Shown here: piece after piece, positions 19,375 through 60,880 of the stretch
How positions within the stretch are numbered: position 1 is the stretch's first letter
Layout: every line of letters begins with the position of its first letter
Origin: Chloroflexota bacterium
Lineage (GTDB): Bacteria > Chloroflexota > Anaerolineae > Anaerolineales > E44-bin32
Assembly (NCBI GenBank): GCA_022561215.1
Contig: JADFRQ010000008.1
Span: forward strand, 1 to 64,000
Reading direction: 5' to 3'
Length of the DNA: 64,000 nucleotides
Program-made: the position numbers and the translations under genes
The notes under the pieces: model-generated
What the model was told of the DNA's origin: nothing
The model's database searches: none
What the model saw: the letters and a program-made list of their open reading frames with translations, nothing else

Positions 19375-19402
19375 GTAGGGGCGTTCAATTGAACGCCCCT
19401 AC
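19375..19402. repeat. 28-bp perfect palindrome (GTAGGGGCG / TTCAATTGAA core)
   Basis: This is a perfect 28-base palindrome with outer arm GTAGGGGCG and centre TTCAATTGAA, 25 bases after the DoxX-like gene. The same arm and core recur at 40945, 41047, 41149, 41251, 43379 and 53255, next to SLH genes. A lone half-arm (TTCGTAGGGGCA) occurs near 19484. Confidence 0.92.
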
Positions 19403-41283: not shown

Positions 41284-43209
41284 TCAATTAATCGGCAATC
41301 CCTTGGCTTGCACCATCATATACGCCGCTGTGGCGCGATCGAGGGCATCATCGGGGCAAATGCGCAAATCCGGTGTGGTTCCGCAGGCAGGGATAATGCC
41401 CGCATTGTATGCGGCCTCAAGCCATTTGGCACCCCAGAAATTGAGGGATACATCGCTGAATATTCCTGTGGGATCGGGCGGCGTAAAGTTCGCTCCGTTG
41501 AGCATGCGTAGGAAGAATACCGTCCCCTCCGTGCGCGTATTTCCTTGCAGCGGGCAGAAAACGAGCGGATCGACCCCACAGCCAGCGGTGTAGCCATCGT
41601 TCCAAAGTCCATCAGCCCATTTGGCGTACCACTCGGAAAACGGTACATCGGCAAATACTGTTTGCAGCGGATCAGGGGGCAAATAATCTGCACCATACAG
41701 CCCACGTTCGACAAAAACTGCGCTTTCGGCGCGTGTCATGGCGTCGTCAGGACAATACATCAGCGGCGTGATACTGCAGCCGGAAACATAGCCCCCTTGA
41801 TAGAGGGCCTCGATCTCGTCGTACGCCCAATGATCAACGGGAACATCCGAGAAAGTTTGAGTTGGATCATACACTGATGGGATCAGACTATTGATGTATT
41901 CCTCAACATTGGTATAGCCATCCCCATCACGATCATCGTTACCATCCGATGGATTATTGGGATTCAAACCACGTGCCGTTTCCCATGTATCGGGCATTCC
42001 ATCGTGATCGTTATCCTCAGGGGGCGTTGTTTGCGCGAGGTCAGGCCATCCCCCTACATCGTCCTGGGAACTAATCAATGAACCGCCCCTATCTCTTACT
42101 TGTTGGACGATTCTCGCATCAACCGCGTCCCTCATCGGCGCACCGGCATGATCCAGTACAAGTTCATAGGCTTCGAAAGCCGTTTGTGTTCGAATTCCAG
42201 ATGGAGGGACTACGTATGATAGAGATTGAGCCAATCGATCTCCATCTACGGCATTCCATTCATCTCCATTATTGGTGGGCCGTTGTGGACCGATATTCCC
42301 CTCGACGTAAATTGGTCCCCCTGACCACACATCAATACCCTTCTTGGAATTCGTGTGACTGGGACCTTCGATGAAATAATTCCCGATGATGTTTACCATC
42401 GCGTCTTGAATAACCGTGGGGTAATTGCCCCAGTCATAAATCACGTTATTAATCGACTCTCCAGTTGTACCTTTCGAAAATTTCGGATTACGGGCGTTGT
42501 TGTGAACGATGAGGTTGTGGTGAATGGAGACGTTAGCCACGCTGCTTAACAACATCCCCATGGAGTGTGTATTACCTTTGGGGTGGAAGGAACTATTAAG
42601 CGCTTCACTGCTGATGCTCCATTGGATGGTGATGTCGTGAAGGGCAACACCTAGCTGGTCCTGGTTTCCCCAAACGCCGATGTTCTTATCGATGCCCCAA
42701 CTGATGGAGCTATGATCGATGATAACGTTGTAGACTGGGTTTCCAGAACCGAGGATATGGAGGCTATCGATGTTGTAGGGATCTGCGTCGCCCGTGATAT
42801 CACCTGCCCTGAAACGCAACCCGCGAATGATCACATCGTGAGTTTGCACACGAAGACCGTAGCCGTAGAGCGTTATCCCTCCACCAGGGGCAGTTTGGGC
42901 AGCAATGGTGATATAGGGATTGCGGATGCTAAGGGTTGAGAGCAGGCGTATATTCCCACTGACTTTGAACACGATGATCCTTTGCCCGCTGGCTCCGACG
43001 GCATCTCTCAAACTCCCGGGTCCACTGTCATTCAGGGAGGTTACCTCGATGACCTGACCACCTCGTCCACCTACGGCCTTTGCGCCATATCCCTCGGCGC
43101 CGGGGAAGGCGGGCAAGAATTCTTCGGCTTGGATACCATCAATAAAACTGAAACTTCCAACTGCGATCGATAGCAGTATTAATGTGGCCTGTATTCTTTT
43201 TTTAATCAT
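41284..43209 (-). CDS. Secreted PL1-like pectate lyase with C-terminal SLH repeats
   Basis: A 641-residue exported enzyme predicted to cleave pectate by beta-elimination. ATG 43209 begins a clear signal peptide (IKKRIQATLILLSIAVGS); a longer frame to 43317 is unlikely. Residues ~30-350 match the right-handed beta-helix of PL1-type lyases: FPGAEGYGAKAVGGRGG, SLRDAVGASGQRIIVF, the metal-site region DHSSISWGIDKN and RNPKFSKG...NNVIYDWGN with the likely catalytic arginine. A calcium-binding stretch follows (DNDHDGMPDTWE, DDRDGDGYTNVEE). Residues ~455-641 are three SLH repeats, each with a Cys pair (GCSITPLMYC, GCGVDPLVFC, ACGTTPDLRIC). It is the last gene of the eight-gene run and is followed by the 102-bp array. 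Confidence 0.88.
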   Translation of the reverse strand: MIKKRIQATLILLSIAVGSFSFIDGIQAEEFLPAFPGAEGYGAKAVGGRGGQVIEVTSLNDSGPGSLRDAVGASGQRIIVFKVSGNIRLLSTLSIRNPYITIAAQTAPGGGITLYGYGLRVQTHDVIIRGLRFRAGDITGDADPYNIDSLHILGSGNPVYNVIIDHSSISWGIDKNIGVWGNQDQLGVALHDITIQWSISSEALNSSFHPKGNTHSMGMLLSSVANVSIHHNLIVHNNARNPKFSKGTTGESINNVIYDWGNYPTVIQDAMVNIIGNYFIEGPSHTNSKKGIDVWSGGPIYVEGNIGPQRPTNNGDEWNAVDGDRLAQSLSYVVPPSGIRTQTAFEAYELVLDHAGAPMRDAVDARIVQQVRDRGGSLISSQDDVGGWPDLAQTTPPEDNDHDGMPDTWETARGLNPNNPSDGNDDRDGDGYTNVEEYINSLIPSVYDPTQTFSDVPVDHWAYDEIEALYQGGYVSGCSITPLMYCPDDAMTRAESAVFVERGLYGADYLPPDPLQTVFADVPFSEWYAKWADGLWNDGYTAGCGVDPLVFCPLQGNTRTEGTVFFLRMLNGANFTPPDPTGIFSDVSLNFWGAKWLEAAYNAGIIPACGTTPDLRICPDDALDRATAAYMMVQAKGLPIN

Positions 43210-43328
43210 CTCCCTCAAATCCTCCGAGTGCAGGTAACCCCTCGGTTTGGAATAGCTCTTGTCTGTGTGTGGGGGGGAAAACAGCTTCTTACCTCGCCCG
43301 GGGGTGTTGAGATTCACGGTAATTTCAA

Positions 43329-43406
43329 CCCCTTCGCTTGCAGCATCATGTCCGCCGCCATTTCAAATCCGATGTTTGGTAGGGGTGTTCAATTGAACAC
43401 CCCTAC
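43329..43406. repeat. Duplicated SLH tail plus 28-bp palindrome
   Basis: 43329-43378 copies the end of the next gene (CCCCTTCGCTTGCAGCATCAT against CCCCTTCGCCTGGACCATCAT at 43431, exactly 102 bases away). It carries the same TTTCAAATCCGATGTTTGGT spacer as the array at 40.9 kb. 43379-43406 is a perfect 28-base palindrome with arm GTAGGGGTG and centre TTCAATTGAA. Confidence 0.92.
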
Positions 43407-43415
43407 GGCGCAGCT

Positions 43416-45269
43416 TCAATTAATCGGCAACCCCTTCGCCTGGACCATCATGTGTGCAGCCATCGCGCGATCGAGTGCCTCGTCGGGGCAGAACTGGAGC
43501 TGTGCAGCAGTCTGACAAGCAGGGATGAGACCGGCGTTGTAAGCTGCTTCAATCCACTTCGCTCCCCAATAGTATTTGTCGACGTCGGCAAATATCCCGC
43601 TCGCGGCGGGAGGCACGTAATTTACCCCATTGAGCATCCGCAGGAAAAACACAGTCCCCTCTGTGCGCGTGTGTTCTTGCATCGGACAATAAACCAATGG
43701 GTCTATTCCGCATCCAGCCGAATATGCCTCGTTCCATAATGCAGTCGACCATTTGCTGAACCATTCCGCGAGCGGGACATCGCTAAAGATTGGAGAGATT
43801 GGATCGGGAGGCGTATACCCGGCGCTGTGAACGCCGCGTATCACAAAAACAGCGCTTTCCGCACGTGTCATTGCGCTATCTGGACAGTACATCAAGGGAG
43901 TGGAACTGCAGCCCGCCACGTATCCGTTCTGGTAAAGGACCTCGATCTCGTCGTGCGCCCAATGGTCAAAAGGTACGTCGCTAAACGTGGGGGATGGGCT
44001 TGGCGACCGACCTTCCACTTCGGCTGCATAATCATGCAGCCACTCCTCGAGGTTAGTGTAGCCGTCGCCATCGTCATCGCCACTGGGATTGTCGGGGATG
44101 GTCAGTGAGCGCTGGATCTCTTGTATGTTAGGCCAACCGCCTACATCATTCTGACTATCAACATAGCTACCTTGGCGATCTTTTACGGTTTGTACAACGC
44201 GGTTGTCGACTGGGTCACGATCTCCAGGTCGAGAACCGACATTGCCCAGGACGTACACTTCGACTTGACTGCTGGGGAGTGTGGTGAGTTCTTGGGGCCA
44301 AACCGGTGGGCTGCCGGCGGCCGTTACACTGCTTCCTTGGACCAGCGTCCATTGATTTGATGGAACGTTGCCATCCCACATGTTGTCATCGAGGAATATC
44401 TCTGAATCCGCTGGCACACTACTGCGGAAATTGATCGGTCTACTTGTGGTTGCAATACCGGAAATGAAGACATTTCCTACGATGCTTCCTTCAATTCTTG
44501 GAGGTCCGTGATCGATCCCCAGATTTTTCCAGTTGTAAATGACATTGTTTATATTAGCGTAGGAACCGCCGCTATATTTGGGATTACGTTGCTGGTTTTG
44601 CGAAAATAAATTACGTATCAGAGAAATCTTGGAGAAACCGGGTGTTCCAGATCCAAATAAAACTCCTGCATAGTTATTTTGTTTTAGGGGTTCACTAATA
44701 ATCGTATTGCTGATGGTAATGTCTCGAATTTCCCTTCCCCTTCCACTTGGAATCCATGCCCCAATGTTTTCATCCGTAGCCCAACTGATGGAAACATGAT
44801 CAATGACAAGGTTATAGATATCTCCATTTCCAGCACTTAGGGCAAGCGCATCTTTCCCCGACGATCGATCACCCCGGCGAATTGAAATGTGCCGAATGAG
44901 CACATCGTGTGTCAGAATAGTGAGCGTGCCGTCTTTGATTAATATAGGCCCTGGCGCAGTATGTCCGGCGAGGGTAAGGAAAGGGTTTCGTATATTTAAA
45001 TCACTTCCTCTCATATCAATCGTCCCGGAGATTTCAAAAATGCACACACGTGGGCCAGAAGCTTCCACGCAAGCTCTCAATGAACCCTGGCCGGAAGAGT
45101 TTAAATTTGAGACTTTGTACACGGCGCCGCCTCTACCGGCTGGCGTATGTGATCCGAAGCCTTCCGCCCCTGGAAAAACAGGGAGATCTGGGACAGGCGC
45201 GGCAGAAGCGGCAAACCAAGCTGAGAGGATTGTGAAGATTAGTAGAGTACCTGCGAATCGCTTAAACAC
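43416..45269 (-). CDS. Secreted PL1-like pectate lyase with C-terminal SLH repeats
   Basis: 617 residues from GTG 45269, with signal peptide (LLIFTILSAWFAASAAP). The N-terminal domain parallels the lyase at 41284: FPGAEGFGSHTPAGRGGAVY, SLRACVEASGPRVCIF, DHVSISWATDENIGAW and RNPKYSGGSYANINNVIYNW. A calcium-type loop (DDDGDGYTNLEEW) leads into three SLH repeats with Cys pairs from about residue 430. The two PL1 genes are diverged enough to suggest different pectin substrates. Ribosome-site support for GTG is weak. The gene lies 206 bases upstream of the sister lyase, with the tail-palindrome duplicate between them. Confidence 0.88.
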   Translation of the reverse strand: MFKRFAGTLLIFTILSAWFAASAAPVPDLPVFPGAEGFGSHTPAGRGGAVYKVSNLNSSGQGSLRACVEASGPRVCIFEISGTIDMRGSDLNIRNPFLTLAGHTAPGPILIKDGTLTILTHDVLIRHISIRRGDRSSGKDALALSAGNGDIYNLVIDHVSISWATDENIGAWIPSGRGREIRDITISNTIISEPLKQNNYAGVLFGSGTPGFSKISLIRNLFSQNQQRNPKYSGGSYANINNVIYNWKNLGIDHGPPRIEGSIVGNVFISGIATTSRPINFRSSVPADSEIFLDDNMWDGNVPSNQWTLVQGSSVTAAGSPPVWPQELTTLPSSQVEVYVLGNVGSRPGDRDPVDNRVVQTVKDRQGSYVDSQNDVGGWPNIQEIQRSLTIPDNPSGDDDGDGYTNLEEWLHDYAAEVEGRSPSPSPTFSDVPFDHWAHDEIEVLYQNGYVAGCSSTPLMYCPDSAMTRAESAVFVIRGVHSAGYTPPDPISPIFSDVPLAEWFSKWSTALWNEAYSAGCGIDPLVYCPMQEHTRTEGTVFFLRMLNGVNYVPPAASGIFADVDKYYWGAKWIEAAYNAGLIPACQTAAQLQFCPDEALDRAMAAHMMVQAKGLPIN

Positions 45270-45375
45270 TTCTTGTACTCGATCCTTTTTCGGCTAACAT
45301 TCATTAACGTAAAGGTGGTTGGCAAACCTCCGGTTAACTTGAACCGCCACTACATCCTGGCCATCGGATGCGGAG

Positions 45376-45437
45376 GGGCAATTGCTAGCCGAAGGCTAGT
45401 TTGAATTGCCCGCTCCTGCTATAACCTCCCGGAGGTT
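45376..45437. repeat. Two palindromes at the 3' end of the GH28-like gene
   Basis: 45376-45411 is an imperfect hairpin with outer arms GGGCAATT/AATTGCCC and inner stem CTAGCC-GAA-GGCTAG. 45423-45437 is AACCTCC-C-GGAGGTT, and its last base is part of the stop codon on the minus strand. A related ACCTCC..GGAGGT hairpin occurs at about 14276. These differ in sequence from the TTCAATTGAA type but hold the same position relative to the gene. Confidence 0.8.
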
Positions 45438-47362
45438 TATTGAATTTCTATTCCCTTTGCCTGCACCATCATAGTTGCGGCCATTGCGCGATCGAGTGCG
45501 TCGTCGGGGCAGAACTGGAGCTGTGCACCAGTCTGACAAGCGGGAATGAGACCGGCGTTGTAAGCCGCTTCAATCCATTTTGCTCCCCAATAGTTTTTGT
45601 CGACGTCGGCAAATATCCCACTTGCGGCGGGTGGTACGTAATTGACCCCATGCATCATCCGCAGATAAAAAACAGTGCCTTCGGTGCGCGTATGGCCCTG
45701 GTCCGGACAATACATAAGTGGATTGCTACTGCAGCCTGAAGTGTAACCATCATCCCATAGCGCTTCTGTCCATTTGGCAAACCACTCACTGAGCGGCACA
45801 TCACCGAAGCTAACGCTAGTCGGTTGGGGTGGCGTGTAGCCCGCGCCATGGATGCCGCGCTCGATATAGACGGCGCTTTCCGCGCGCGTCATCGTTTCCT
45901 CAGGACAATACATCAGGGGAGAGGAACTGCAGCCCGCAATATAGCCCTCTTGGTAGAGGAGCTCGATTTCTTCATACGCCCAATGGTCAAAGGGCACGTC
46001 GGCGAATGTCGGTGTTGGTCCAGGTGTAGGAATTGGTGGCCCTCCAACACCATTGCATTTTGGTGCAGCGCCATCGAAAGTGAGATTTGTGACACTCGAA
46101 TCAATCCGCAGGTCCTTTGTTGGATCTCCCGACAGGTGCGAACTGAAAGCGGAAATCGAGAGGCCGCATACATCTCGAAACCACGCCAGCGGCGCCGATC
46201 CGGAGGAGGCGTAATAGCGGATATTCCTGAAGGTCACGCGCTCCATATTGTTGATGGAAGCTTGGTGATAATTTCCGGTGTCGACACGACCGCCGCCGTA
46301 GAGATCGAAATCTTCGAAAACGATGTCATGAATGTAGCCGCCTAGAGTTTCATTAAACCCATCGCCGTCACGATCTACGGAAGCCTGGCAGTCATAAACA
46401 TTCTTACCGGCACCGGTGCCACCGCCACAAACCAGCATACGCTCTACTGAATCTTCGAAAGTGATGCCGCGAAAGGTAATGTTGCTGACTTCCGCGCCGT
46501 CATAAATTGAAAAACGAATACCGAAGGGACTGTTGTGGAGCATAATATTTTCGTAGGTAATGTTCTTGATATCGTATTCGGACCCCGTGCCGAATTTCAG
46601 AGCTGCGGAGTCACTTGAGACACGGCAATTCTCGATAAAAATATCGTCGTTGATCTCACCCGACCCTGAGGAAGAGGCGATTGCGATCCCGTCGTCATGG
46701 CTATCGATATCACAATTACGAACCACAACATGTTGTGAACTCTGCAAATCCATGCCGTCGTTCCCCCAGGACTGGCCAGAGCTTCGACCACCACGGATAG
46801 TGACATCCTCGAATGTGACGTGGTCGCTGGCCGCAGCCACGAGATGAAATCCATTTGCAGATTTAGGTGCAGAGCGTGTGTCGATGAGAATATTTGATAC
46901 AAGGATATTGGAAGAGTCCCAAAACTCGACGATTGCCGAGAATGTATTGCTCGAGGACGGACGACTGATGGTTCCTGGCCCGAGGATGGCAACGTTATTC
47001 GTGCCACTTCGGGTGCCGATAAAAACTGTATGGCATCCTGGACATTTCAGTGAGCGGAAATCACTCTCATTATCAGCAGACTGGATTGTTGCGCCATTCA
47101 GATCCAGCGTGACATTGCTTTTAATTTCAATCGTTCCTGTCGTGTATATTTTCCCGGCGGATAAGATCACCGTCCCGCCACCAAGTGCATTGCATTGGTC
47201 GATCGAGCTTTGGATCTGATTTGTATTATCGCTTCCTGAAGGAGAACCCACCTGGCAGGTATCCGCGGCATAGGCGAGATTGGGGGTTAAGGTTAAGACG
47301 GCGAAAACAATACCCACACCAAGCGAGGTAAGCAGGATTATTGTTCTCGGCCGTAAAGTCAT
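45437..47362 (-). CDS. Secreted GH28-like polygalacturonase with C-terminal SLH repeats
   Basis: 641 residues from ATG 47362; a TTG at 47377 is also possible. A signal peptide (TIILLTSLGVGIVFAVLTL...AYA) is followed by a right-handed beta-helix matching GH28: NTNQIQSSIDQCNALGGGTV, NVTLDLNGATI, GNDGMDLQSSQHVVVRNCDI and DSHDDGIAI with the paired aspartates. The usual G-H-G motif is not obvious, so the exact specificity (polygalacturonase or a related glycosidase) is open. Three SLH repeats with Cys pairs occupy about 455-641 and end in GIEIQ rather than GLPIN. It would hydrolyse the homogalacturonan that the neighbouring lyases also attack. Confidence 0.85.
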   Translation of the reverse strand: MTLRPRTIILLTSLGVGIVFAVLTLTPNLAYAADTCQVGSPSGSDNTNQIQSSIDQCNALGGGTVILSAGKIYTTGTIEIKSNVTLDLNGATIQSADNESDFRSLKCPGCHTVFIGTRSGTNNVAILGPGTISRPSSSNTFSAIVEFWDSSNILVSNILIDTRSAPKSANGFHLVAAASDHVTFEDVTIRGGRSSGQSWGNDGMDLQSSQHVVVRNCDIDSHDDGIAIASSSGSGEINDDIFIENCRVSSDSAALKFGTGSEYDIKNITYENIMLHNSPFGIRFSIYDGAEVSNITFRGITFEDSVERMLVCGGGTGAGKNVYDCQASVDRDGDGFNETLGGYIHDIVFEDFDLYGGGRVDTGNYHQASINNMERVTFRNIRYYASSGSAPLAWFRDVCGLSISAFSSHLSGDPTKDLRIDSSVTNLTFDGAAPKCNGVGGPPIPTPGPTPTFADVPFDHWAYEEIELLYQEGYIAGCSSSPLMYCPEETMTRAESAVYIERGIHGAGYTPPQPTSVSFGDVPLSEWFAKWTEALWDDGYTSGCSSNPLMYCPDQGHTRTEGTVFYLRMMHGVNYVPPAASGIFADVDKNYWGAKWIEAAYNAGLIPACQTGAQLQFCPDDALDRAMAATMMVQAKGIEIQ

Positions 47363-47417
47363 CTTTAAGTTTTTCAATAAGTTTTATGTATTCCTTTGCT
47401 TGCTATCGAACAAGGTC

Positions 47418-47437
47418 GGGCGGTTCGCGAACCGCCC
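47418..47437. repeat. Palindrome, GTAGGGGC family (TTCGCGAA core)
   Basis: GGGCGGTTCG and its complement form a perfect 20-base palindrome followed by CTAC. It starts 13 bases after the stop codon of the minus-strand gene at 47451. The same core variant occurs at 56186. Confidence 0.9.
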
Positions 47438-47450
47438 CTACGGCATTCCT

Positions 47451-49982
47451 CTAATTGATCGGCAAACCCTTGGCCTGCACCATCATCGAAGCCGCCATCG
47501 CACGAGTGAGTGGATCGTCAGGGCAGAATTTTAACTCGGGCGCGGAGGCACAAGCGGGGATCAACCCCGCTTTGTAGGCCTCCTCGATCCATTTCGCTCC
47601 CCAGAATTCAATCGAGACATCCGCAAAAATTCCGCGGGGATCGGGCGGCGTATAGCTCGCCCCATGGAGCATGCGCAGGAAGAACACCGTCCCTTCGGTG
47701 CGCGTGTGTTCCTGGAGCGGGCAATAGACGAGCGGATTGGTCCCACAACCTGCCGTATAGCCGGCGTTCCAGAGCGCAGCTGACCATTTGCTGAACCACT
47801 CCGAGAGAGGCACATCCGCAAAGATTAACTGACCTGGATCAGGAGGCGTATAGGCAGCGCCGTTTATGCCGCGCACGACGAATACGGCACTCTCTGCGCG
47901 CGTCATCGCATTTTCGGGGCAATACATCAGCGGCGCGCTACTGCACCCGGAAACATAGCCCCCTTGATAGAGGGTCTCGATCTCATCATGCGCCCAATGA
48001 TCGAAGGGCACATCGACAAAAGTCGGAGGATCCGGGGGTTTGCTGCCATCCTGGTAGACGAACTTGAACGCATCGGCGATGACGGGACCATTTGCTCCCT
48101 GGGCGGAGAGGATCACTTTTCCAGAGGTTCCCTTATTGAAAGTGAAAGTGCCGAGACTGTTCCATTGACCAAAATTGCTCGATTGATCGACTGTGCGCTT
48201 CGTTGAACCACCGCTATGCTGGATCGTGATCCCAACATTGGTAGCTTCCGCTACTGAGGAAGCGCTATCACCTAGATAGCCATGCCATTCGAAGACCTCA
48301 TAGCTGCCGCCGACGCCAATCGAAGGGGTGAATATGGCGGTTCCATCACTGTCGCTGCGTGCGTGCGTGTGCCAATAATCTACGCCCCCATAGGCGCGTC
48401 CCTGCTTGTGGCTGTAAACACTCCAATGATTACGGCCACCTTTCATCTGCAGAGAAAAACCACCGCTAAGTGCGGCCTCAAAACTGCCAGGTGAGGTGCT
48501 GAAATCGTTGTTATCGACAATGATGTCGGAGATGATGGTTTGAGGGCTGCGCAATAAAATGATGGCATCCCCCAAAGGCTTGATCTGGTTACCCTTTTGC
48601 CATGTGTAACCGTTCAAAGAGACGGAGGTGAACGCTGCCCCAGTGTTCAAGGCATTTCCGCCGTTGAGTGAGATATCCTGCCCTCCTTCAAATCTCCAGT
48701 ATGGGCCGGCATAGCCAGGTAGAGACTTAAGTTCTTGATTGGATACATTAACCGAATTGCCAGTTACATTGACGATGGAAACACCCTTATCGAAAAAGCG
48801 TACCCAAACTCCAGCTTTAAGTTTCAAAGCATCGTCCAACGGTCCGAAGCGACCCAAGTCTATGGGTTGTCCCAAATCGAGATCAAACTCGTCATACCAT
48901 TGGTGAATGTGGTGATTCTGTGTGCTTTGCGCTTCTTCAAAGGTCATATAGTTAAAGTAGGCGTCTCCAAGAAGTGTGACCCCAAGGAGATAACGCATAG
49001 ATTGCAGGTGGTTTCTTGAATCGGTCTTGTCACTCAAAGCGGTGATAAATGGATCGCTGCGATCCGGTCGCGCATCGATGATGGCCACATGAGGAAAGGG
49101 AGCAACCTCCATAAAGTATTTGTACTCATCGTTCCAAAAATAGCCGGTCTCAAAATTGTTGCCAAATCCGGTGGTCCATTCGCGGACCATGCCGTTGATA
49201 TATTCAACGCCAAGTTTCTGCCACTGGAAACCGAAATTGATGAGCGAGGTCTTGCTGGATCCGGCCTTGTCCAGCTCAGCGCGTAGATTGGCCAATAATT
49301 CGACGGTGCCTTCCTGCCACTTGGCATCGACCCAAGCCTTGCCGTGTTCATCAAAATCGTTGACCCCGTTGCGATCCATATCGATATCGGAAATGCCGTA
49401 GGGCTTTCTCCAGAGCCAATCAGTAGCCACACCGTCGTTTATATTCAGCAGACTCTGCTCAACAACTTGAACCGGCAAGGCTTCGAGGATCGACAATCCG
49501 GAAAATCGTCCACTCTTGGCATCCCGTGAGAAAATCGATTGATCGATCATGCGATTGCAGCAATTGAGATAAACGTCATCTCCATTTGAATCGTCAACAA
49601 GGAACGCGCTCGCGTCAAAATCACTCACTGGGATTGGATATCTCGAGGGACTGACGTAAGCAGTCCATCCGCGCGTTGGGATGTTTAGCGTGCTTGGGCT
49701 GATGGCTTTGATCTGTTCGCCAAGATATTCTCCGCTTCCTACCATCACCAGGTCATGTTTTGCATACCAATCCGCAGGGGCACTGCCGAAGTGGAATATG
49801 CCAATGCGTGGATAAGATGGGCTGTAATTGTCTGCTGCCGCTGATGGCTGGGTCTGTGGGATCGTTTGATGGCTGGCATTTGTATTTGCTGAAGATGATT
49901 GAACGGGCGATAGCAGAGCGAAAGTCGTCAGCACAGCGATAATACGAACCGTGAGATTGCGACGCGTTGAGTTACTAAGCAC
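47451..49982 (-). CDS. Secreted GHL15-like glycosidase with golvesin-like domain and SLH repeats
   Basis: 843 residues from GTG 49982 (GGAG nine bases before; a TTG at 50000 adds six residues). A signal peptide is followed by a predicted TIM-barrel domain (about 55-390) resembling the putative glycosidase family GHL15: YPRIGIFHFGSAPADWYAKHDLV, LNINDGVATDWLWRKP. It contains a 12-residue EF-hand-like loop (DMDRNGVNDFDE). A second domain (about 495-650) matches the golvesin C-terminal type (GGSYEVFEWHGYL, TVDQSSNFGQWNSLGTFTF, VIADAFKFVYQDG), often carbohydrate-binding. Three SLH repeats with Cys pairs end the protein. Its last 655 bp are identical to those of the gene at 53288. The polysaccharide substrate is unknown. 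Confidence 0.82.
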   Translation of the reverse strand: MLSNSTRRNLTVRIIAVLTTFALLSPVQSSSANTNASHQTIPQTQPSAAADNYSPSYPRIGIFHFGSAPADWYAKHDLVMVGSGEYLGEQIKAISPSTLNIPTRGWTAYVSPSRYPIPVSDFDASAFLVDDSNGDDVYLNCCNRMIDQSIFSRDAKSGRFSGLSILEALPVQVVEQSLLNINDGVATDWLWRKPYGISDIDMDRNGVNDFDEHGKAWVDAKWQEGTVELLANLRAELDKAGSSKTSLINFGFQWQKLGVEYINGMVREWTTGFGNNFETGYFWNDEYKYFMEVAPFPHVAIIDARPDRSDPFITALSDKTDSRNHLQSMRYLLGVTLLGDAYFNYMTFEEAQSTQNHHIHQWYDEFDLDLGQPIDLGRFGPLDDALKLKAGVWVRFFDKGVSIVNVTGNSVNVSNQELKSLPGYAGPYWRFEGGQDISLNGGNALNTGAAFTSVSLNGYTWQKGNQIKPLGDAIILLRSPQTIISDIIVDNNDFSTSPGSFEAALSGGFSLQMKGGRNHWSVYSHKQGRAYGGVDYWHTHARSDSDGTAIFTPSIGVGGSYEVFEWHGYLGDSASSVAEATNVGITIQHSGGSTKRTVDQSSNFGQWNSLGTFTFNKGTSGKVILSAQGANGPVIADAFKFVYQDGSKPPDPPTFVDVPFDHWAHDEIETLYQGGYVSGCSSAPLMYCPENAMTRAESAVFVVRGINGAAYTPPDPGQLIFADVPLSEWFSKWSAALWNAGYTAGCGTNPLVYCPLQEHTRTEGTVFFLRMLHGASYTPPDPRGIFADVSIEFWGAKWIEEAYKAGLIPACASAPELKFCPDDPLTRAMAASMMVQAKGLPIN

Positions 49983-50221
49983 TAGGTGTTTCTCCTTCAA
50001 GCATTTGAGCTGTATGGCAGCTTGAATAGTAAAAAATCATATTAACCGTCAATCGAGTCATTCGTAATATGTAAGATGGAAATTTAACGATGTTGATCTA
50101 ATCGGCGAGCAGATTGCAGTTGCTGCGTTTCACAAATTGGGTCCTAATTCGAATTTAAAATTGCCTTTATCCTGTAGCCAACCCCATAAAAAGTGTAAGG
50201 ATGAGGTAGCGAAAGAGGCAG

Positions 50222-50257
50222 GGTACTCGAGTACCTAGGGTGTAAGTACGTTGGTCC
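50222..50257 (-). promoter_or_regulatory. Candidate operator, paired direct repeat
   Basis: AGTACGTTGGTCC lies at 50245-50257, with an imperfect copy 23 bases before it (GGTACTCGAGTACC from 50222). On the gene's sense strand the unit is GGACC-N3-GTACT. It lies about 240 bases before the start of the gene at 47451. The same pair, with the same 23-base period, occurs at 55909 and 61042. Confidence 0.55.
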
Positions 50258-50290
50258 TATGGTGGAGGGGATATAATAATGATCTCGCGT

Positions 50291-50412
50291 GGGCACGGCA
50301 TTCCGTGCCCCACCGGAACGGCAGCCCATTCGCCGCACCATCATGGCTGCTGCCATTGGTCTGACCGTCCTATTTCGATTGCTTGTCGTGGGGGCGTTCA
50401 CTTAAACGCCCC
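50291..50412. repeat. Palindromes and tail copy after the beta-helix SLH gene
   Basis: 50291-50310 is a palindrome with arm GGGCACGGCA. 50311-50358 copies the end of the neighbouring gene (GCACCATCATGGCTGCTGCCAT), 103 bases from the true end. 50391-50412 is an imperfect palindrome (GGGGCGTT...AACGCCCC). The stop codon TAG of the gene at 50412 lies in the GTAGGGGC arm. Confidence 0.85.
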
Positions 50413-53183
50413 TACGGAATGCTTAACCCCTTCGCTTGTACCATCATGTAGGCCGCCATGGCGCGCGTGAGAGGATCATTAGGGCAGAACTTCAGCTCGG
50501 GCGCGGATGAACAAGCTGGGATCAGCCCGGCGTTGTAGGCTGCCTCAACCCAATCGGCGTACCACATCTCGATTGGCACATCTGAGAAAACCCCATTGGC
50601 TTCAGGCGGAACGTAATCTGCGCCGTGCAGCGTGCGCAGGAAGAAGACGCTTCCCTCCGCGCGGGTGTGGCCTTGTAGAGGACAATAAATCAGCGGATTG
50701 GTACCACAACCGGCAGTGAAGCCATCGTCCCACAACGATGTAGTCCACTTGGCGAACCACTCCCACAAAGGCACGTCGTCAAAGGGGTGGCTCGATGACT
50801 GGGCGGGAAGGTATCCAGCCCCGTGAATTCCGCGCACGACGAATACGGCACTCTCTGCGCGAGTCATGGTTGCATCGGGACAGTACATGAGCGGATCGTT
50901 GTTGCACCCTGCAACGTAGCCAGCCTGATAGAGCGTTTCGATGTATTCCAGGGCCCAGTGGCTGGAGGGTACATCAATAAAAGTAGGACTTGGACCGTTG
51001 AGTTCAACTGCGCCGATATCTGGAGCAATACCGGAGTACGTGTCATTGACACCCGCTATATGCACTCCTGCATCCACGAGGGGAGAAGATTGTGGCAGGG
51101 TGAAGTCTCCATTGGAGGGATTGGCGAATTCTGGGTGGACGCTAATTCCATGCTGCTCGAGCCCATAGGTCAATCGCATTTCCTCAACGGTGTACATTCG
51201 GTCTCCAGAAAGTATTCTGACGAGATAAGAGCCGTCGACGGAACTGTCAACCCACAGGTTGTCGTAATCCATATTCATCTCAACGGGGTGACCGTTGTTT
51301 TCAATTTGATCCTTATAAACCGTGAGCACCGCATGACCTGGATTGACGGACCAGGAGTTGTTCCGGGTATTTGCGATGAAACCGGGCGTATTTTTCCAAA
51401 CCGTTGAAAATGCTGAGATCGAGTTGACCGGCGAGGCGGGGTCGAGCTCAATAACTGAACTGTTGTGATAGAGCAATGTAGGCCCCGTCCCGCCGCTGGC
51501 GTTGACGTTGTACTTCCATGCCCCATAAGGCATTATGTATTTTCCAGTAAGATCTAAACTGCCATCAGGGAAATATCTGTTCGTCATGTAAATCGTGTTG
51601 CGGATCATCCACAACGGTCCAACCGTAGCAGGCGCTGAGGAGATCCCGACGAAGACATGGTGGAGGTAATTCCCCCAGATGACCTGGTTGTACACAGGTC
51701 CATCAAGTTCAAGCGCATCGTCCCCGATGCGATAGAGTTCGTTCCCCATAATGATGGTGCCAGCGTTGTATCTGGGATTGCCCATGGTGGCGGGCCCACC
51801 GTTGCCCCAGGGCGAGCCGGCGTTAATCCCGTTCTCCACATCATGGATTTTGTTATTACGGATCACGTGGTTTCCGCCAGAGACCAATCCGATTCCGCCG
51901 GTTGAGATCACATCATGCCCCAACCACCATTCTCGATACCAAAAACTGGGTGAGCAATAAATATCGTTCCCCTCGATCAAAGAGAAGGAGGAGAGATCGT
52001 CATCGGATTTGCTCAGGGAGGTATGGGCCTTAATTCCATCCCAGTTCCAACGGAGCGTATTGTTTCTCACAACAACGTAATCGGCGCTATCCAGCTGGAT
52101 AGCGGTGCGCGTGTGTTGAATTGTCAGACCATCAACCACGACATGATCTCCAGCGATGATCAAGCCGTAGCGAGCCAATCCGGCGTAGATGCTTCTCCCC
52201 GTCGGGTTGATGGCTGGGCCAGACCACTGGTCGAATACATTCGGAAATTTCACGTAGAGACGATTGGAATTGCCGTCGTACCACCAGCCGCCATGCAGAC
52301 CGGTACGCGTATCGCCCTGATAGAGTCCAATGGCCAAATTATTGAGAGAATCGAAGGGCATGAGGAAGTGTTCTTCGAAAAAGACTATCCTTGGAGAAGT
52401 AGAAAGAGGCGCCCAGTAGACCCCAGGATATGTCGAGCGGTCTGCATCTTGCCAGGTCACGTTCCCGGGAGAGGCAAGCTCGGCGTCTGCGCCATCTAAA
52501 ATTGGGTTTTCGCCTGGGGCAGATTTAATGATGATGGGATATTCAGCTGAACCGGATTTATCAATGCGAATGGATCTTGAGGAAGAAATGTCGTAATTGC
52601 CGCTATGAAGCAGGATGGTCTCGCCAGGACTGACCAATTCGATCGCCTTTTGGATGGTTTGAAGAGGCGCATTCGAAGATCCATCGTTGCTGTCCCGACC
52701 AAGCGGTGAGACATGGAGCACCCGACCTGAATTCTCTGTTCTGGGTTCTGCTCGAGTCGAAGCGGTGAAAGTGAAAGGGTTTTCCCCAAGAATGCCATCT
52801 GGGTCGGTGAATCTCACTTGAATTTCATAGGATGTTCCCGGCCTGAGATTGAAGAGTCGGCCAGCCCATTCAAATTGGGACCCGGAGACGTTGGGATTAA
52901 AAGTAGTCGCATGCCAGATGCGTTGGAGAGGGTGGCCTTCTTTCCATGGAACGGATCCGATCTGACGATATTGAATCTGTGCTTCGCTGTCCTCGTTGCT
53001 ATCGCCAGTGAAAGGGATGCTGAAGCCGAGCGTTGAGAACGCAGGAAGAAGGATAGGGTCCCCTTGCGGGATCGTCAATGATGATGAGGTTTGGGCCTGG
53101 GCAAGCGTGCCTTGGAAGATAAAAGCAGTCCCAAGGATGAGAATAAGGATGTGTGTCTTTATCTGTTTAGAGTTTCGAACCAT
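50412..53183 (-). CDS. Secreted right-handed beta-helix protein with SLH repeats
   Basis: 923 residues from ATG 53183, with a strong GGAGG ribosome site; a longer frame to 53291 is unlikely. A signal peptide (THILILILGTAFIFQGTLAQA) is followed by a fibronectin-III-like domain (about 35-160, ending TYEIQVRFTDPDG). A large beta-helix domain (about 165-690) starts DGSSNAPLQTIQKAIELVSPGETI and contains PIIIKSAPGENPILDG, VVVDGLTIQHTR and NNTLRWNWDGIKAH. This pattern occurs in DUF1565 and PL6/PL9-like proteins. A polysaccharide lyase or hydrolase function is probable, but I cannot name the family. Three SLH repeats with Cys pairs end the protein. It is 104 bases downstream of the gene at 53288. Confidence 0.82.
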   Translation of the reverse strand: MVRNSKQIKTHILILILGTAFIFQGTLAQAQTSSSLTIPQGDPILLPAFSTLGFSIPFTGDSNEDSEAQIQYRQIGSVPWKEGHPLQRIWHATTFNPNVSGSQFEWAGRLFNLRPGTSYEIQVRFTDPDGILGENPFTFTASTRAEPRTENSGRVLHVSPLGRDSNDGSSNAPLQTIQKAIELVSPGETILLHSGNYDISSSRSIRIDKSGSAEYPIIIKSAPGENPILDGADAELASPGNVTWQDADRSTYPGVYWAPLSTSPRIVFFEEHFLMPFDSLNNLAIGLYQGDTRTGLHGGWWYDGNSNRLYVKFPNVFDQWSGPAINPTGRSIYAGLARYGLIIAGDHVVVDGLTIQHTRTAIQLDSADYVVVRNNTLRWNWDGIKAHTSLSKSDDDLSSFSLIEGNDIYCSPSFWYREWWLGHDVISTGGIGLVSGGNHVIRNNKIHDVENGINAGSPWGNGGPATMGNPRYNAGTIIMGNELYRIGDDALELDGPVYNQVIWGNYLHHVFVGISSAPATVGPLWMIRNTIYMTNRYFPDGSLDLTGKYIMPYGAWKYNVNASGGTGPTLLYHNSSVIELDPASPVNSISAFSTVWKNTPGFIANTRNNSWSVNPGHAVLTVYKDQIENNGHPVEMNMDYDNLWVDSSVDGSYLVRILSGDRMYTVEEMRLTYGLEQHGISVHPEFANPSNGDFTLPQSSPLVDAGVHIAGVNDTYSGIAPDIGAVELNGPSPTFIDVPSSHWALEYIETLYQAGYVAGCNNDPLMYCPDATMTRAESAVFVVRGIHGAGYLPAQSSSHPFDDVPLWEWFAKWTTSLWDDGFTAGCGTNPLIYCPLQGHTRAEGSVFFLRTLHGADYVPPEANGVFSDVPIEMWYADWVEAAYNAGLIPACSSAPELKFCPNDPLTRAMAAYMMVQAKGLSIP

Positions 53184-53254
53184 TTCAACCTCCGGCGATT
53201 GGCGTTGGTTCGTTTGGGTGGCACTCAACCGTATTTCTACAAAGCACAGTTTTG

Positions 53255-53280
53255 GTAGGGCGTTCAATTGAACCGAACGG
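53255..53280. repeat. Degenerate palindrome, TTCAATTGAA core
   Basis: GTAGGGCGTTCAATTGAACCG retains the left arm and centre of the family, but the right arm is altered. It lies seven bases after the stop of the minus-strand gene at 53288. Confidence 0.75.
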
Positions 53281-53287
53281 AATAAAT

Positions 53288-55840
53288 TCAATTGATCGGC
53301 AAACCCTTGGCCTGCACCATCATCGAAGCCGCCATCGCACGAGTGAGTGGATCGTCAGGGCAGAATTTTAACTCGGGCGCGGAGGCACAAGCGGGGATCA
53401 ACCCCGCTTTGTAGGCCTCCTCGATCCATTTCGCTCCCCAGAATTCAATCGAGACATCCGCAAAAATTCCGCGGGGATCGGGCGGCGTATAGCTCGCCCC
53501 ATGGAGCATGCGCAGGAAGAACACCGTCCCTTCGGTGCGCGTGTGTTCCTGGAGCGGGCAATAGACGAGCGGATTGGTCCCACAACCTGCCGTATAGCCG
53601 GCGTTCCAGAGCGCAGCTGACCATTTGCTGAACCACTCCGAGAGAGGCACATCCGCAAAGATTAACTGACCTGGATCAGGAGGCGTATAGGCAGCGCCGT
53701 TTATGCCGCGCACGACGAATACGGCACTCTCTGCGCGCGTCATCGCATTTTCGGGGCAATACATCAGCGGCGCGCTACTGCACCCGGAAACATAGCCCCC
53801 TTGATAGAGGGTCTCGATCTCATCATGCGCCCAATGATCGAAGGGCACATCGACAAAAGTCGGAGGATCCGGGGGTTTGCTGCCATCCTGGTAGACGAAC
53901 TTGAACGCATCGGCGATGACGGGACCATTTGCTCCCTGGGCGGAAAGGATCACTTTTCCAGAGGTTCCCTTGTTGAAAGTGAAGGTGCCGAGACTGTTCC
54001 ATTGGCCATCATTTCGGGATTGATCGACCGATCGATTCGCAGTTCCACCTGCATGGGAGATGGTTATGCTGACGTTGCTGGCTTCATTCACATCACCGGT
54101 GTCACTGCCAAGATAGCCATGCCATTCGAAGACCTCATAGCTGCCGCCGACGCCAATCGAAGGGGTGAATATGGCGGTTCCATCACTGTCGCTGCGTGCA
54201 TGCGTCTGCCAATAATCCACGCCACCGTAGGCACGGCCGTTCTTCTGGCTGAATACGCTCCAGTGGTTGCGGCCGCCATTCATCTGCAAGGAGAATCCAC
54301 CGCTCAATTTCGCTTGGTAGCTGCCAGGCGAGGTGCTGAAATCGTTATTATCGACAATGATGTCGGAGATGATGGATTGAGGGCTGCGCAACAAGATGAT
54401 GGCATCGCCCATCACTCTGGTGAGGCCATTTTTTTGCCATGAATAACCGTCCAGAGTAACAGCCTTAAATGCCTCTCCGTTATTCTGCGCCCTGGATCCA
54501 TTGAGGGATAAGTCCTGGCCTCCAGCAAAACGCCAATAGGGCCCTGCGTACCCGGGAAGAGATTTCAACTCCTGATCGGTGATCGATATCGGACTGCTGG
54601 TGACATTGACAATCGAGACACCTTTATCGAAGAAGCGCACCCAGATCCCAGACTTGAGCTCCTGGGCATCATCCAATGGGCCGGATCGACCAAAATCGGT
54701 GGGTCGGCCCAGATCCAAGTCGAACTCGTCGTACCATTGGTGAATGTGGTGATTCTGCGTGCTTGTCGCTTCCTCAAAAGTCATAAAATCGAAATAAGCA
54801 TCACCAAGCAACGTGACGCCGAGCAGGTAGCGCATGGCTTGCAGGTGATTTCGTGAATCGGTCTTGTTTACGCTGCCGCTGAAGAATGGGTCGCTGCCAT
54901 CGGCACGACCATCGATGATGGCGACGTGAGGATAAGGAGCGTTCTCCATGAAGTATTTGTATTCATTGTTCCAGAAGGACCCATTCTTGAAGTTACCACC
55001 GAAACCAGTTGTCCATTCGCGGAACATGCCATTAATGTATTCGTTCGCAATTTGTTGAAATTGAAAGCCATAGTTGACGAAGGCTACGTTTCCGGGTCCG
55101 GCCTTATCGAGCTCTTTGCGCAGGTTGGAGAGAAGCTCAGTTACCCCTTCTTGCCATTTTGCGTTAACCCATTTTTTGCCATGTTCGTCGTAGTCGTTGA
55201 CCCCGTTCCTATCGAGATCAATATTGGAAACGCCATAGGGCTTCACCCAAAGCCAATCTGTAGCAACACCGTCGTTAATGGACAAGCGGTTTTCTTTTGC
55301 TGCTGCAATGGGTAGGGCCTGGCGGATTGTAAGACCACTGTACTGCCCGAAGCCGCTTGGCCTGGAGAAGCTAGACATATCAATCAGGCGATTACAACAA
55401 TTGATGTAGACGTCTGCGCCGGAGGCATCCACTGCCAGGAAAGCTTCTAAATCAAAATCAGGCTTTGCGATGGGATAGCGGGTCGGAGAGATATAAGCCG
55501 CCCACTCCCTCGTCGGCAGGACAATCGTGTTGGGATTAAGCGCTTTAACTGTCTCGCCCATGTCAAAGCCGCTGCTGACGACGATCAAATCGTATTTTGC
55601 GTACCAATCATCCGGGGCTCTGCCAAAATGTAGCATTCCAATCCTCGGGTAAGAAGGGCTGTAGAGATTTTGGGGGTTGGAAACCCCAGCAAGGGCCGCC
55701 GCGCCCTGCGATGAAAAAACGACCGGGGTGAAGGAAAGAGCAGATACGACCAGAATAAAGAGAACAGTTTTGCCGAGTTTCTTTAATTGTGTGAACGATG
55801 GTCTTCTCCACCAGCGGGTGGCTTCGTGGGGATGATGCAT
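53288..55840 (-). CDS. Secreted GHL15-like glycosidase with golvesin-like domain and SLH repeats
   Basis: 850 residues, ATG 55840 with GGAG before it. It is a full-length paralogue of the gene at 47451 with the same order: signal peptide, TIM-barrel-like domain (YPRIGMLHFGRAPDDWYAKYDLI, SINDGVATDWLWVKP, EF-hand-like loop DLDRNGVNDYDE), golvesin-like domain (GGSYEVFEWHGYL, DQSRNDGQWNSLGTFTF) and three Cys-bearing SLH repeats. The SLH region and adjoining linker are identical in DNA to the paralogue over 655 bases (53290-53944). The N-terminal two thirds have diverged. A candidate operator lies 65-105 bases upstream. The substrate is unknown; the locus points to pectin-type polymers. Confidence 0.82.
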   Translation of the reverse strand: MHHPHEATRWWRRPSFTQLKKLGKTVLFILVVSALSFTPVVFSSQGAAALAGVSNPQNLYSPSYPRIGMLHFGRAPDDWYAKYDLIVVSSGFDMGETVKALNPNTIVLPTREWAAYISPTRYPIAKPDFDLEAFLAVDASGADVYINCCNRLIDMSSFSRPSGFGQYSGLTIRQALPIAAAKENRLSINDGVATDWLWVKPYGVSNIDLDRNGVNDYDEHGKKWVNAKWQEGVTELLSNLRKELDKAGPGNVAFVNYGFQFQQIANEYINGMFREWTTGFGGNFKNGSFWNNEYKYFMENAPYPHVAIIDGRADGSDPFFSGSVNKTDSRNHLQAMRYLLGVTLLGDAYFDFMTFEEATSTQNHHIHQWYDEFDLDLGRPTDFGRSGPLDDAQELKSGIWVRFFDKGVSIVNVTSSPISITDQELKSLPGYAGPYWRFAGGQDLSLNGSRAQNNGEAFKAVTLDGYSWQKNGLTRVMGDAIILLRSPQSIISDIIVDNNDFSTSPGSYQAKLSGGFSLQMNGGRNHWSVFSQKNGRAYGGVDYWQTHARSDSDGTAIFTPSIGVGGSYEVFEWHGYLGSDTGDVNEASNVSITISHAGGTANRSVDQSRNDGQWNSLGTFTFNKGTSGKVILSAQGANGPVIADAFKFVYQDGSKPPDPPTFVDVPFDHWAHDEIETLYQGGYVSGCSSAPLMYCPENAMTRAESAVFVVRGINGAAYTPPDPGQLIFADVPLSEWFSKWSAALWNAGYTAGCGTNPLVYCPLQEHTRTEGTVFFLRMLHGASYTPPDPRGIFADVSIEFWGAKWIEEAYKAGLIPACASAPELKFCPDDPLTRAMAASMMVQAKGLPIN

Positions 55841-55908
55841 GCTTAACTTTCTCCTGCTGTCGGGGTGATTTTGTTTTAATTTTAGAGGGTTGGCAGGATG
55901 TCCTCCAG

Positions 55909-55944
55909 AGTACTGAGGTCACTTAGAGGGAAGTACCCTAGTCC
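55909..55944 (-). promoter_or_regulatory. Candidate operator, paired direct repeat
   Basis: AGTACTGAGGTCA (55909-55921) and AGTACCCTAGTCC (55932-55944) are two copies with a 23-base period, 69-104 bases before the start of the gene at 53288. They match the pairs at 50222 and 61042. Confidence 0.6.
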
Positions 55945-56094
55945 TGAACATCAATGGGACCTAATCAGAGCATGGGGCAATCAGTGAACATATTCGGCCG
56001 AATGAATTCGCCGGGTTGAGCAGCAATGATCGTTTGTGGGATGGGGAATGCGTACCGTAGCTCACGCCTGATCGTCCTATCACGAATCCTTTTT

Positions 56095-56213
56095 GCCGGC
56101 ATGCCGTGCCCCTACACCAGTAGATTTCGTTTCGTGTGCACCATCAAATTAATCATTGATAGATTTTCCATTTCGATTTCTCGTCGTAAGGGCGGTTTGC
56201 GAACCGCCCTTAC
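56095..56213. repeat. Palindromes and tail relic overlapping a stop codon
   Basis: A GCCGGCATGCCGTGCCCCTAC arm pair lies near 56095-56114. A relic of the SLH gene end (GTGCACCATCAAATTAATC) is near 56135-56155, 98 bases from the true end. A perfect 28-base palindrome with arm GTAAGGGCGG occupies 56186-56213. Its right edge contains the TAA stop of the gene at 56210. Confidence 0.85.
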
Positions 56214-58657: not shown

Positions 58658-58730
58658 AATGTAGTGATTCCAACTTGCAAGGTGTTATTGGAGGGAAAGA
58701 TTCCTCTTCACCTGTCTATTCTCCGGGTAA

Positions 58731-58750
58731 GGGAACGGCATGCCGTGGCC
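58731..58750. repeat. Palindrome after the PL11-like gene (GGCATGCC core)
   Basis: GGGAACGGCA and TGCCGTGGCC form an imperfect 20-base palindrome with a perfect ACGGCATGCCGT centre, directly adjoining the stop codon at 58751. The same centre appears near 40859 and 56099. Confidence 0.8.
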
Positions 58751-60880
58751 TCACGGAATTTGTAATCCCTTAGCCTGCACCATCATGGTTGCCGCCATGG
58801 CGCGATCGAGAGGATCGTCGGGGCAAAACTTTAATTCTGGTGTTGTCTCACATGCAGGGATTAAGCTTGCATCATAAGCCGCCTCAATCCATTTAGCCCC
58901 CCAAAAACCGGGAGCTACATCCATAAAAATCCCTTTGGGATCAGGAGGAATATAGGCTGCACCATTGAGCATGCGCAGAAAGAAAACGGTCCCTTCGGTA
59001 CGAGTGTGTTGCTGCAGGGGGCAGTAAACAAGTGGATCCATCCCACAGCCAGAGGTGTAGCCATCTTCCAACAAGGCGCCTGCCCATTTGGCATACCACT
59101 CGGTCAGTGGCACATCATCGAAAACCTTGTTCGAGGGTGAAGGTGGAGTGAAACCCGAGCCGTTTAATCCGCGCTCTACGAAGACCGCGCTTTCGGCACG
59201 CGTCATGTTGTCATCCGGGCAGTACATAAGTGGATCGGCGCTGCATCCGGAAATATATCCCTGATCGTAGAGAATCTTGATCACGTCGTAGGCCCAATGA
59301 TTTGGGGCAACATCGACAAAAAAGGTAGGTAGAGAAGGAGCATTGCCTCCTCCCGGAAGCAAAGGTTTGGGAAGGCCAGTGCCGTAGCTGGCCATGTTCA
59401 TCAAATAGGTATGATCCTCTCGGGGAGAAGGCCTGTTAGGGTAAGCCGTCGGCTGGTCATTGCTGTACACATAAAGCTTGTAGCCGGAGGCGACGATGAT
59501 CTCTTCACGCCAGTCGCCAAGGATGTCGACCTGGATCGATTCACCGCTCCCACGCGCTTTCGCAAAGCCGCTTTCGATATTGACGCCTTTGAATTTGTTG
59601 AGCAGCGTACCACCCCGATAACGGTAGTACTCTGCAGTGTCATCATCATCCCAAAAGAGGGGGTAGCCCACATGATTGCCGGTTTGGCTGCGTAAGATTG
59701 TTCCATCCGCTGCATAGAGGAACCATTTTTCACTGTATCCATCGACCCACACATCTTTTGCAGCAGGTGGGGTGCCATAGACACCATTGAGCGTATTTTG
59801 CCATTCGTTCCCTGTGTAAAAATAGCCCGTAGCCCAGATTTCAAGGCCAGGTGAAGGATCCACATCGTAGACCCAGCCGCGATGCATCCTGCCCCAGCCT
59901 TCATCCGTTTTGCTGCTGTTGTGGTGCCAAATGATTTCTTTCTGGTCGAGGTCGATGAGGTAGGGGCCTTCCCAATAATTGGGCTGGACGACGTAGGGGT
60001 CGTTCGTTGACCCCGAGCGTTGAAGATACCATTCGAGCCCCGGGTTGTCGGGATCGATGTCACCCACCAGTGATCGCTCGGCCTCGCCCTCATTTGAATA
60101 ATCCCCAAATGTTCCATCCAAATATAGGGTGCCATCATCGTCGATGATTAATGAACCGTTGACAATTTCATCTCTTCCGTCGCCATCGACATCTGCGGTG
60201 TAAATATTTGTCCAACTGAGAAAGCCGTAGAATTTCGGGTTATCGAAGGTCCAATATATGTTTAGATCTTTGTCGTATGCAGTGGTCACCATATCACGCC
60301 CCTGCGCGATGACCAGGTAGGGATTGACCCCATCCAGGTATGCAATGGTGGCATGGTTAATTTTCCTGGGCCTTGCGATAGACCGGCTAACAAGGATGTC
60401 CCCGGTCTCCCCATCGAGCATTACCAGCTTGGTCGTTCCATTTTCTTTCATCTGGGTCATGACTTCGTCTTTGCCGTCGCCATCCATGTCCCAAACGCTC
60501 AGCGTGACCGTCCAAGTGGGATCACCATTGGTATCTCGATACGTCATGTTGTGAGCAAATTCCCAGAGGATTTTCCCGTCATTGCGCACCGCGTAGGTGA
60601 TCGTCTTGAAGTCCTTGTCGATATCATCATCGATCCAAACCCGCGCTAAAAAGTCATAATCGCCATCTCCGTCCAAATCGCCCACCCCTACGGTGTAGCT
60701 CAGACGATCCTCGGGGATCCCTAATTTGTCCGTAGGAAGATCGAAGACCCAACTGTTTTTTGCCTGTGCACTGTCCGCAATTAAGCTGGCCAAAGCAATT
60801 ACAACGACGACGGCAAAAGAGAACCCCCCCCATCGTCGGATTATGTGAATTGGGTGGAACTCAACATTTTTTAGGATCAT
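58751..60880 (-). CDS. Secreted PL11-like rhamnogalacturonan lyase with SLH repeats
   Basis: 709 residues with a signal peptide (FSFAVVVVIALASLIADSAQA). The main domain (about 40-500) is a propeller with several calcium-type loops (VGDLDGDGDYDF, DMDGDGKDEVM, DVDGDGRDEIV). It carries the signature VDILGDWREEIIVASGYKLYVYS of rhamnogalacturonan lyase family PL11 (YesW/YesX), split here by family pattern. PL11 enzymes cut the backbone of rhamnogalacturonan I. The usual N-terminal FnIII-like part of the family is missing or short. Three SLH repeats with Cys pairs occupy about 520-709. It is the first gene of the eight-gene minus-strand run and has the candidate operator about 160-200 bases upstream. 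Confidence 0.85.
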   Translation of the reverse strand: MILKNVEFHPIHIIRRWGGFSFAVVVVIALASLIADSAQAKNSWVFDLPTDKLGIPEDRLSYTVGVGDLDGDGDYDFLARVWIDDDIDKDFKTITYAVRNDGKILWEFAHNMTYRDTNGDPTWTVTLSVWDMDGDGKDEVMTQMKENGTTKLVMLDGETGDILVSRSIARPRKINHATIAYLDGVNPYLVIAQGRDMVTTAYDKDLNIYWTFDNPKFYGFLSWTNIYTADVDGDGRDEIVNGSLIIDDDGTLYLDGTFGDYSNEGEAERSLVGDIDPDNPGLEWYLQRSGSTNDPYVVQPNYWEGPYLIDLDQKEIIWHHNSSKTDEGWGRMHRGWVYDVDPSPGLEIWATGYFYTGNEWQNTLNGVYGTPPAAKDVWVDGYSEKWFLYAADGTILRSQTGNHVGYPLFWDDDDTAEYYRYRGGTLLNKFKGVNIESGFAKARGSGESIQVDILGDWREEIIVASGYKLYVYSNDQPTAYPNRPSPREDHTYLMNMASYGTGLPKPLLPGGGNAPSLPTFFVDVAPNHWAYDVIKILYDQGYISGCSADPLMYCPDDNMTRAESAVFVERGLNGSGFTPPSPSNKVFDDVPLTEWYAKWAGALLEDGYTSGCGMDPLVYCPLQQHTRTEGTVFFLRMLNGAAYIPPDPKGIFMDVAPGFWGAKWIEAAYDASLIPACETTPELKFCPDDPLDRAMAATMMVQAKGLQIP

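Follow-up and report, generated by a model that had tools for sequence, protein, structure and literature searches.

Eight adjacent minus-strand genes at 41284-60880 of a 64,000-nucleotide stretch of Chloroflexota DNA (contig JADFRQ010000008.1; the whole stretch is referred to here as the window) encode probably secreted, carbohydrate-active proteins with a common C-terminal block of S-layer homology (SLH) repeats, and form a real, sizeable surface-enzyme array of an already known general kind. Our best explanation, favored tentatively and with slightly less than even confidence, is a surface-tethered battery against acidic, uronate-containing polysaccharides, for which a microbial source (exopolysaccharide or capsule) seems likelier than plant pectin. 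The new elements are a probable link between the GHL15 family and exopolysaccharide, an apparent exchange between SLH and dockerin tails, and an altered PL11-like site.

Eight probably secreted proteins share a predicted wall anchor

The region is filled by eight open reading frames (P1 to P8 in order of position), all of them open at the coordinates given below. Each protein combines a signal-peptide-like N-terminal hydrophobic stretch with a carbohydrate-active domain and an SLH-type C-terminal region of ~190 residues. Pfam and NCBIfam profile searches, used for the domain calls on all array proteins, placed the N-terminal domains in carbohydrate-active families (PL1, GH28, GHL15, PL11-like and beta-helix), and the initial annotation's description of a row of eight SLH-tailed enzyme genes was borne out after the adjustment of two starts. 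A chimera of different organisms was rejected in favor of genes from a single organism, as G+C content is uniform (52.0% in the array, 51.2% in the rest) and the same tail is present on other contigs. A promoter scan returned fewer sites than were found in shuffled sequence, and transcription units could not be assigned by this means.

The Pfam SLH cut-off was passed by P5 only, with the single repeats of most other array proteins scoring below it, and the SLH blocks of the five array proteins tested matched the solved Sap SLH trimer with E-values of 1e-4 to 4e-8. A complete block is carried by 27 proteins among those read in the selected stretches by which the genome was covered, the array being one segment of this set. 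Alignment of the 27 blocks revealed three SLH repeats with HWA, MTRAE and TRTE-type motifs and six Cys, in which the Trp positions, TRAE-type motifs and Cys are nearly invariant. The genome contains one CsaB homologue, its single PF04230 match (CsaB model E 1.7e-53; 182 bits, under the cut-off of 213), whose gene lies among glycosyltransferase genes ~0.3 kb from an SLH-protein gene, and a LytR-CpsA-Psr gene is present within the window. Judged from sequence, the Sap-like shared block, the CsaB homologue near an SLH gene and the LytR-CpsA-Psr gene make anchoring of the array proteins to the wall likely, which supports the surface-tethered, multi-enzyme arrangement proposed initially. Wall-associated carbohydrate-active enzymes have been predicted in Anaerolineae (PMC11495043).

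GHL15 proteins have a predicted GH168-like fold and relatives in exopolysaccharide loci

P4 (47451..50000) and P6 (53288..55840) both consist of GHL15, Golvesin_C and an SLH block (47451-48026 and 53288-53863, respectively). Their PF14885 matches (P4, 5e-11, 43.5 bits; P6, 2e-8, 35.2 bits) exceed the curated cut-off of 27, and Golvesin_C in P4 was assigned by PF25275 (3e-19). P7 (56210..58657) carries Golvesin_C (6e-17) and an SLH block behind a divergent catalytic part that has no GHL15 match of its own and is 40% identical to that of P6. Of the three GHL15-like members claimed initially, P4 and P6 are therefore confirmed by profile, and P7 stands only as a P6 homologue.

An AlphaFold2 model of P6 (mean per-residue confidence, pLDDT, of 81) presented a TIM barrel, a glycosidase fold. 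Its best whole-barrel matches were GH168 endo-fucanases (PDB 8rg3, 9joc, 8ya7), with E-values of ~1e-9 and template modeling scores by target of up to 0.61, ranking above GH191 and Cwp19; this similarity is one of fold at ~15% identity, and a PDB sequence search gave no sequence-level match. Asp190 of P6 is conserved in 34/40 relatives and Glu275 in 37/41, and the two residues occur in the same order as the D206/E264 pair of FunA (PMC11943901). The modeled GHL15 domain resembles the GH168 enzymes in the barrel and in an ordered Asp and Glu, whereas it differs in a long insert between these residues and in the addition of Golvesin and SLH domains. Golvesin_C itself matched a xanthan lyase of known structure, over the C-terminal domain of that enzyme. 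No measured activity for GHL15 was found in the literature searched, and a 2017 paper describes all GHL families except GHL1 as uncharacterized at that time.

Neighborhoods were compared between 23 GHL15 loci, with query-supplying loci left out and two stretches of one region counted once, and 20 control loci, for which contigs were taken arbitrarily from the same genomes and were in some cases short. At least one exopolysaccharide-synthesis gene was found at 10 of the 23 GHL15 loci and at least two at seven, compared to none at the 20 controls (Fisher p = 0.0007 and 0.01, respectively), and pectinase relatives were seen at neither the 23 GHL15 loci nor the controls. In Calditrichaeota, the nearest Golvesin-bearing relatives are encoded among genes for Wzy, carbamoyltransferase, acyltransferase, AlgX-like and glycosyltransferase proteins, and a further two genomes of the phylum have a GHL15 gene adjoining genes for Wzx, Wzy, Wzz and sugar transferases. 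The lack of pectinases at these loci argues against the suggestion that the GHL15-like proteins have pectin-related activities. Because of the GH168-like fold of GHL15, its neighbors in exopolysaccharide loci and the xanthan-lyase match of Golvesin_C, a microbial exopolysaccharide is preferred as the target, and the first two of these observations provide a first testable substrate hypothesis for the family. A scan of a collection of genome contigs with the GHL15 alignment returned only four loci. A GHL15-Golvesin gene lies on a contig binned as Aenigmatarchaeota (L043:9899-11752), by either gene transfer or binning error.

Families known from pectin show intact and altered sites

P1 (41284..43317) contains a signal-peptide-like start, a PL1 domain, an EF-hand-like Ca-binding stretch and an SLH block (41284-41859) that is 74% identical to that of P6; ATG 43209 is a more likely start than the one listed. 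P2 (43416..45269) contains a PL1 domain and an SLH block (43416-43991). Both matched the NCBIfam PelZ model (P1, E 1.3e-64, 219 bits; P2, E 7e-70, 236 bits; model cut-off 840), and both have the PL1 beta-helix with its Ca-site Asp and catalytic Arg, as read directly from the P1 sequence and, for P2, from an alignment with PDB 9buj in which the Arg lies in the RNP motif. The PDB matches of P2 were the pectate lyase 9buj (3e-20) and VexL (5e-9), a lyase that acts on a substrate other than polygalacturonate.

P3 (45437..47377) is a GH28-like beta-helix (PF00295, 2e-11) with an SLH block at 45437-46012. Alignments with PDB 5olp, 3jur and 2uve showed that the catalytic Asp residues are retained (NDGMD and HDD) and that the polygalacturonase GHG His and RIK Lys are absent, both being Ser when compared to 3jur and 2uve. 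P5 (50412..53291), with an SLH block at 50412-50987, is a large, weakly PL9-like beta-helix (DUF1565, 4e-10; PDB 1ru4 pectate lyase, 2e-5), for which ATG 53183 is a more likely start than the listed TTG that overlaps the stop of P6.

P8 (58751..60880) is a PL11-like beta-propeller followed by an SLH block. It resembles the PL11 lyases YesW, YesX and PDB 4cag in its RGL11_C profile match (PF21348, 8.5e-29, above the cut-off) and in fold, as the four solved PL11 structures were the top matches of its eight-bladed model (mean pLDDT 61; canonical PL11 sequences were included in the alignment behind the model). In contrast to these lyases, P8 has no match to the N-terminal RGI_lyase domain, and in the alignments all four Ca2+ ligands (His, His, Asp and Glu) and the substrate Lys, whose roles are described in PMC8787155, are replaced, with the Arg kept (YesW residue numbering was derived by counting). 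A paralogue on another contig (L038:1-2404, contig C19; cut by the contig end) is 82% identical and shows the same replacements, but its tail differs, with a Pro/Thr-rich linker and a different domain where P8 has its SLH block.

Searches of the genome, which is ~91% complete, found neither GH88/105 nor UxaC. KduI was rejected as support for pectin catabolism, as the KduI-family match is IolB in an inositol operon. Given the replaced residues of P8 and P3 and the failure to find GH88/105, UxaC and a true KduI, there is no support for an attack of the array on the rhamnogalacturonan I backbone, and a nutritional use of pectin is doubtful. The earlier assignment to pectin and rhamnogalacturonan I rests on family names and is partly supported; it fits the PL1 key residues and the GH28 Asp residues but not the altered P3 and P8 sites or the failure to find the uronate enzymes searched for.

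Plant-pectin scavenging nevertheless has to be weighed as an alternative, in which PL1 and GH28 attack on homogalacturonan is combined with rhamnogalacturonan I cleavage by P8 and other pectin-related activities from the GHL15 proteins, and the products are imported and catabolized. The intact PL1 domains are consistent with it, as is the joint occurrence of GH28 and PL11-type folds in the array. Beyond the array, the genome also encodes a second GH28 and several beta-helix proteins, which would agree with it too. As the altered P8 and P3 sites, the uronate enzymes not found and the GHL15 loci without pectinases all argue the other way, we consider pectin scavenging rather unlikely.

Proposed action on acidic polysaccharides

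Under the preferred explanation of a battery against microbial acidic polysaccharides, the array proteins would be secreted and held on the cell's own wall by their three Cys-bearing SLH repeats, whose predicted ligand is a pyruvylated polymer of the wall that depends on the genome's one CsaB homologue for its synthesis. As one segment of a genome-wide SLH-tethered protein set, the enzymes would act together at the cell surface to cleave acidic heteropolysaccharides that contain uronate. From the observed architecture and conserved residues we infer that the PL1 domains of P1 and P2 cleave by beta-elimination and that the GHL15 TIM barrels may act as GH168-like glycosidases, using Asp190 and Glu275 in P6, with assistance from a binding domain of the xanthan-lyase kind (Golvesin_C). 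A further proposal, which we regard as possible but doubtful, is that GHL15 is a microbial-exopolysaccharide glycosidase family native to exopolysaccharide-synthesis loci, that its members, whose SLH or dockerin tail can be swapped, were recruited into a surface array here, and that P3 and P8, with their altered active sites, have matching non-pectin specificities.

Several points weigh against the preferred explanation. With a genome of this completeness, missing pathway genes are weak evidence, and the control loci in the neighborhood comparison were of the arbitrary kind described above. No exopolysaccharide-synthesis gene is present next to the array itself. Moreover, most of what is known about the PL1, GH28 and PL11 families concerns pectin, and finding the three together hints at that substrate.

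The polymer could also be self-made, with tethered enzymes trimming or releasing the cell's own exopolysaccharide or sheath as lyases and hydrolases of exopolysaccharide loci do. The position of GHL15 relatives inside such synthesis loci would agree with this, and within the genome itself SLH proteins share contigs C100 and C34 with exopolysaccharide-type genes. However, the array in the window is not part of an exopolysaccharide locus, and the number and diversity of its enzymes, together with a phytase and a phosphoesterase in the SLH set, fit foraging better, which leaves remodeling of the cell's own polymer unlikely. A mostly adhesive display, in which several domains are inactive, lectin-like forms that bind polymers or surfaces, would be consistent with the replacement of key residues in P8 and of some in P3, but is very improbable given the conserved PL1 residues and GHL15 Asp/Glu pair.

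The wider SLH set and apparent exchange of tails

Among the other carriers of the complete SLH block are five beta-helix proteins, a second GH28, a DUF5060 protein, a cohesin-SLH protein and a fourth GHL15, as well as proteins with alginate-lyase-family, PL14-like, GH123-like, DUF4832, phytase and metallophosphoesterase domains. Families of the pectin type make up the smaller part of the set. Three further SLH-tailed proteins (L034:6133-8676, L034:9120-11588 and L032:2842-5232) have N-termini of ~600 residues that matched nothing in Pfam at the thresholds applied. The SLH-tethered phytase (L033:6896-8608, contig C49) and the inositol (iol) operon (L157:2709-10316, contig C16) of the same genome suggest phytate use. 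Across the order, the block was present in 15 of 121 sampled genomes, this one included; the number of matches was 27 in this genome, compared to 26 and 18 in two of the others. The tail therefore reflects a wider habit and is not specific to the array. Literature searches turned up no specific report of SLH-tailed pectinases from Chloroflexota.

The SLH blocks of P4 (47451..48026, minus strand) and P6 are identical at 574/576 bases, compared to 69% protein identity between the catalytic parts. Near-identical tails of this kind would be expected from recent gene conversion, although they may alternatively be an assembly artifact, and the SLH tail has the appearance of a cassette that can be exchanged between genes. 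Contigs C100, C101 and C116 break off within SLH blocks, a pattern that would be expected from interference of near-identical tails with assembly. In a genome of the same family and another genus (G122), a GHL15-Golvesin enzyme (L103:6470-8935) ends in a dockerin instead of SLH; its gene adjoins those of two additional dockerin proteins, and the genome also encodes a cohesin-SLH protein (L148:3652-4854). An enzyme type that is wall-anchored in one genus and dockerin-bearing in another would offer a natural comparison for the evolution of surface enzyme systems.

The last codons of the P1 tail recur three more times in a 102-bp repeat downstream of the gene (40977..41319, minus strand; 3.4 copies, 3' of P1), which repeats these codons and a downstream palindrome. 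This 12-bp palindrome, GTTCAATTGAAC, is dispersed in the window at 19383, 40949, 41051, 41153, 41255, 43387 and 53262, mostly close to the 3' side of SLH genes (7 observed, 0.25 expected by chance), and also occurs at L031:12964 and 13122 and at L035:14686. A role as an SLH-specific terminator was not supported, as it lacks a T run and the copy at 19383 lies away from SLH genes.

Comparison with known surface enzyme systems

The array had been described as non-cellulosomal, which holds for its eight proteins, as Pfam and NCBIfam searches found no dockerin in any of them. In the genome as a whole, one cohesin-SLH protein and two dockerin proteins are encoded, and on contig C101 (L031:10045-12909) a beta-helix-dockerin gene is directly followed by the cohesin-SLH gene, forming a minimal cohesin-dockerin pair. 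Both this genome and G122 therefore resemble cellulosome-type systems in having cohesin-SLH and dockerin proteins, whereas the array enzymes bear the wall anchor directly. The array also resembles the SLH-anchored carbohydrate-active enzymes of monoderm bacteria, with which it shares secreted enzymes, three SLH repeats and a CsaB homologue in the genome, and from which it differs in a conserved Cys pair per repeat, eight genes in a row, 27 carriers in one genome and tails that have apparently been exchanged.

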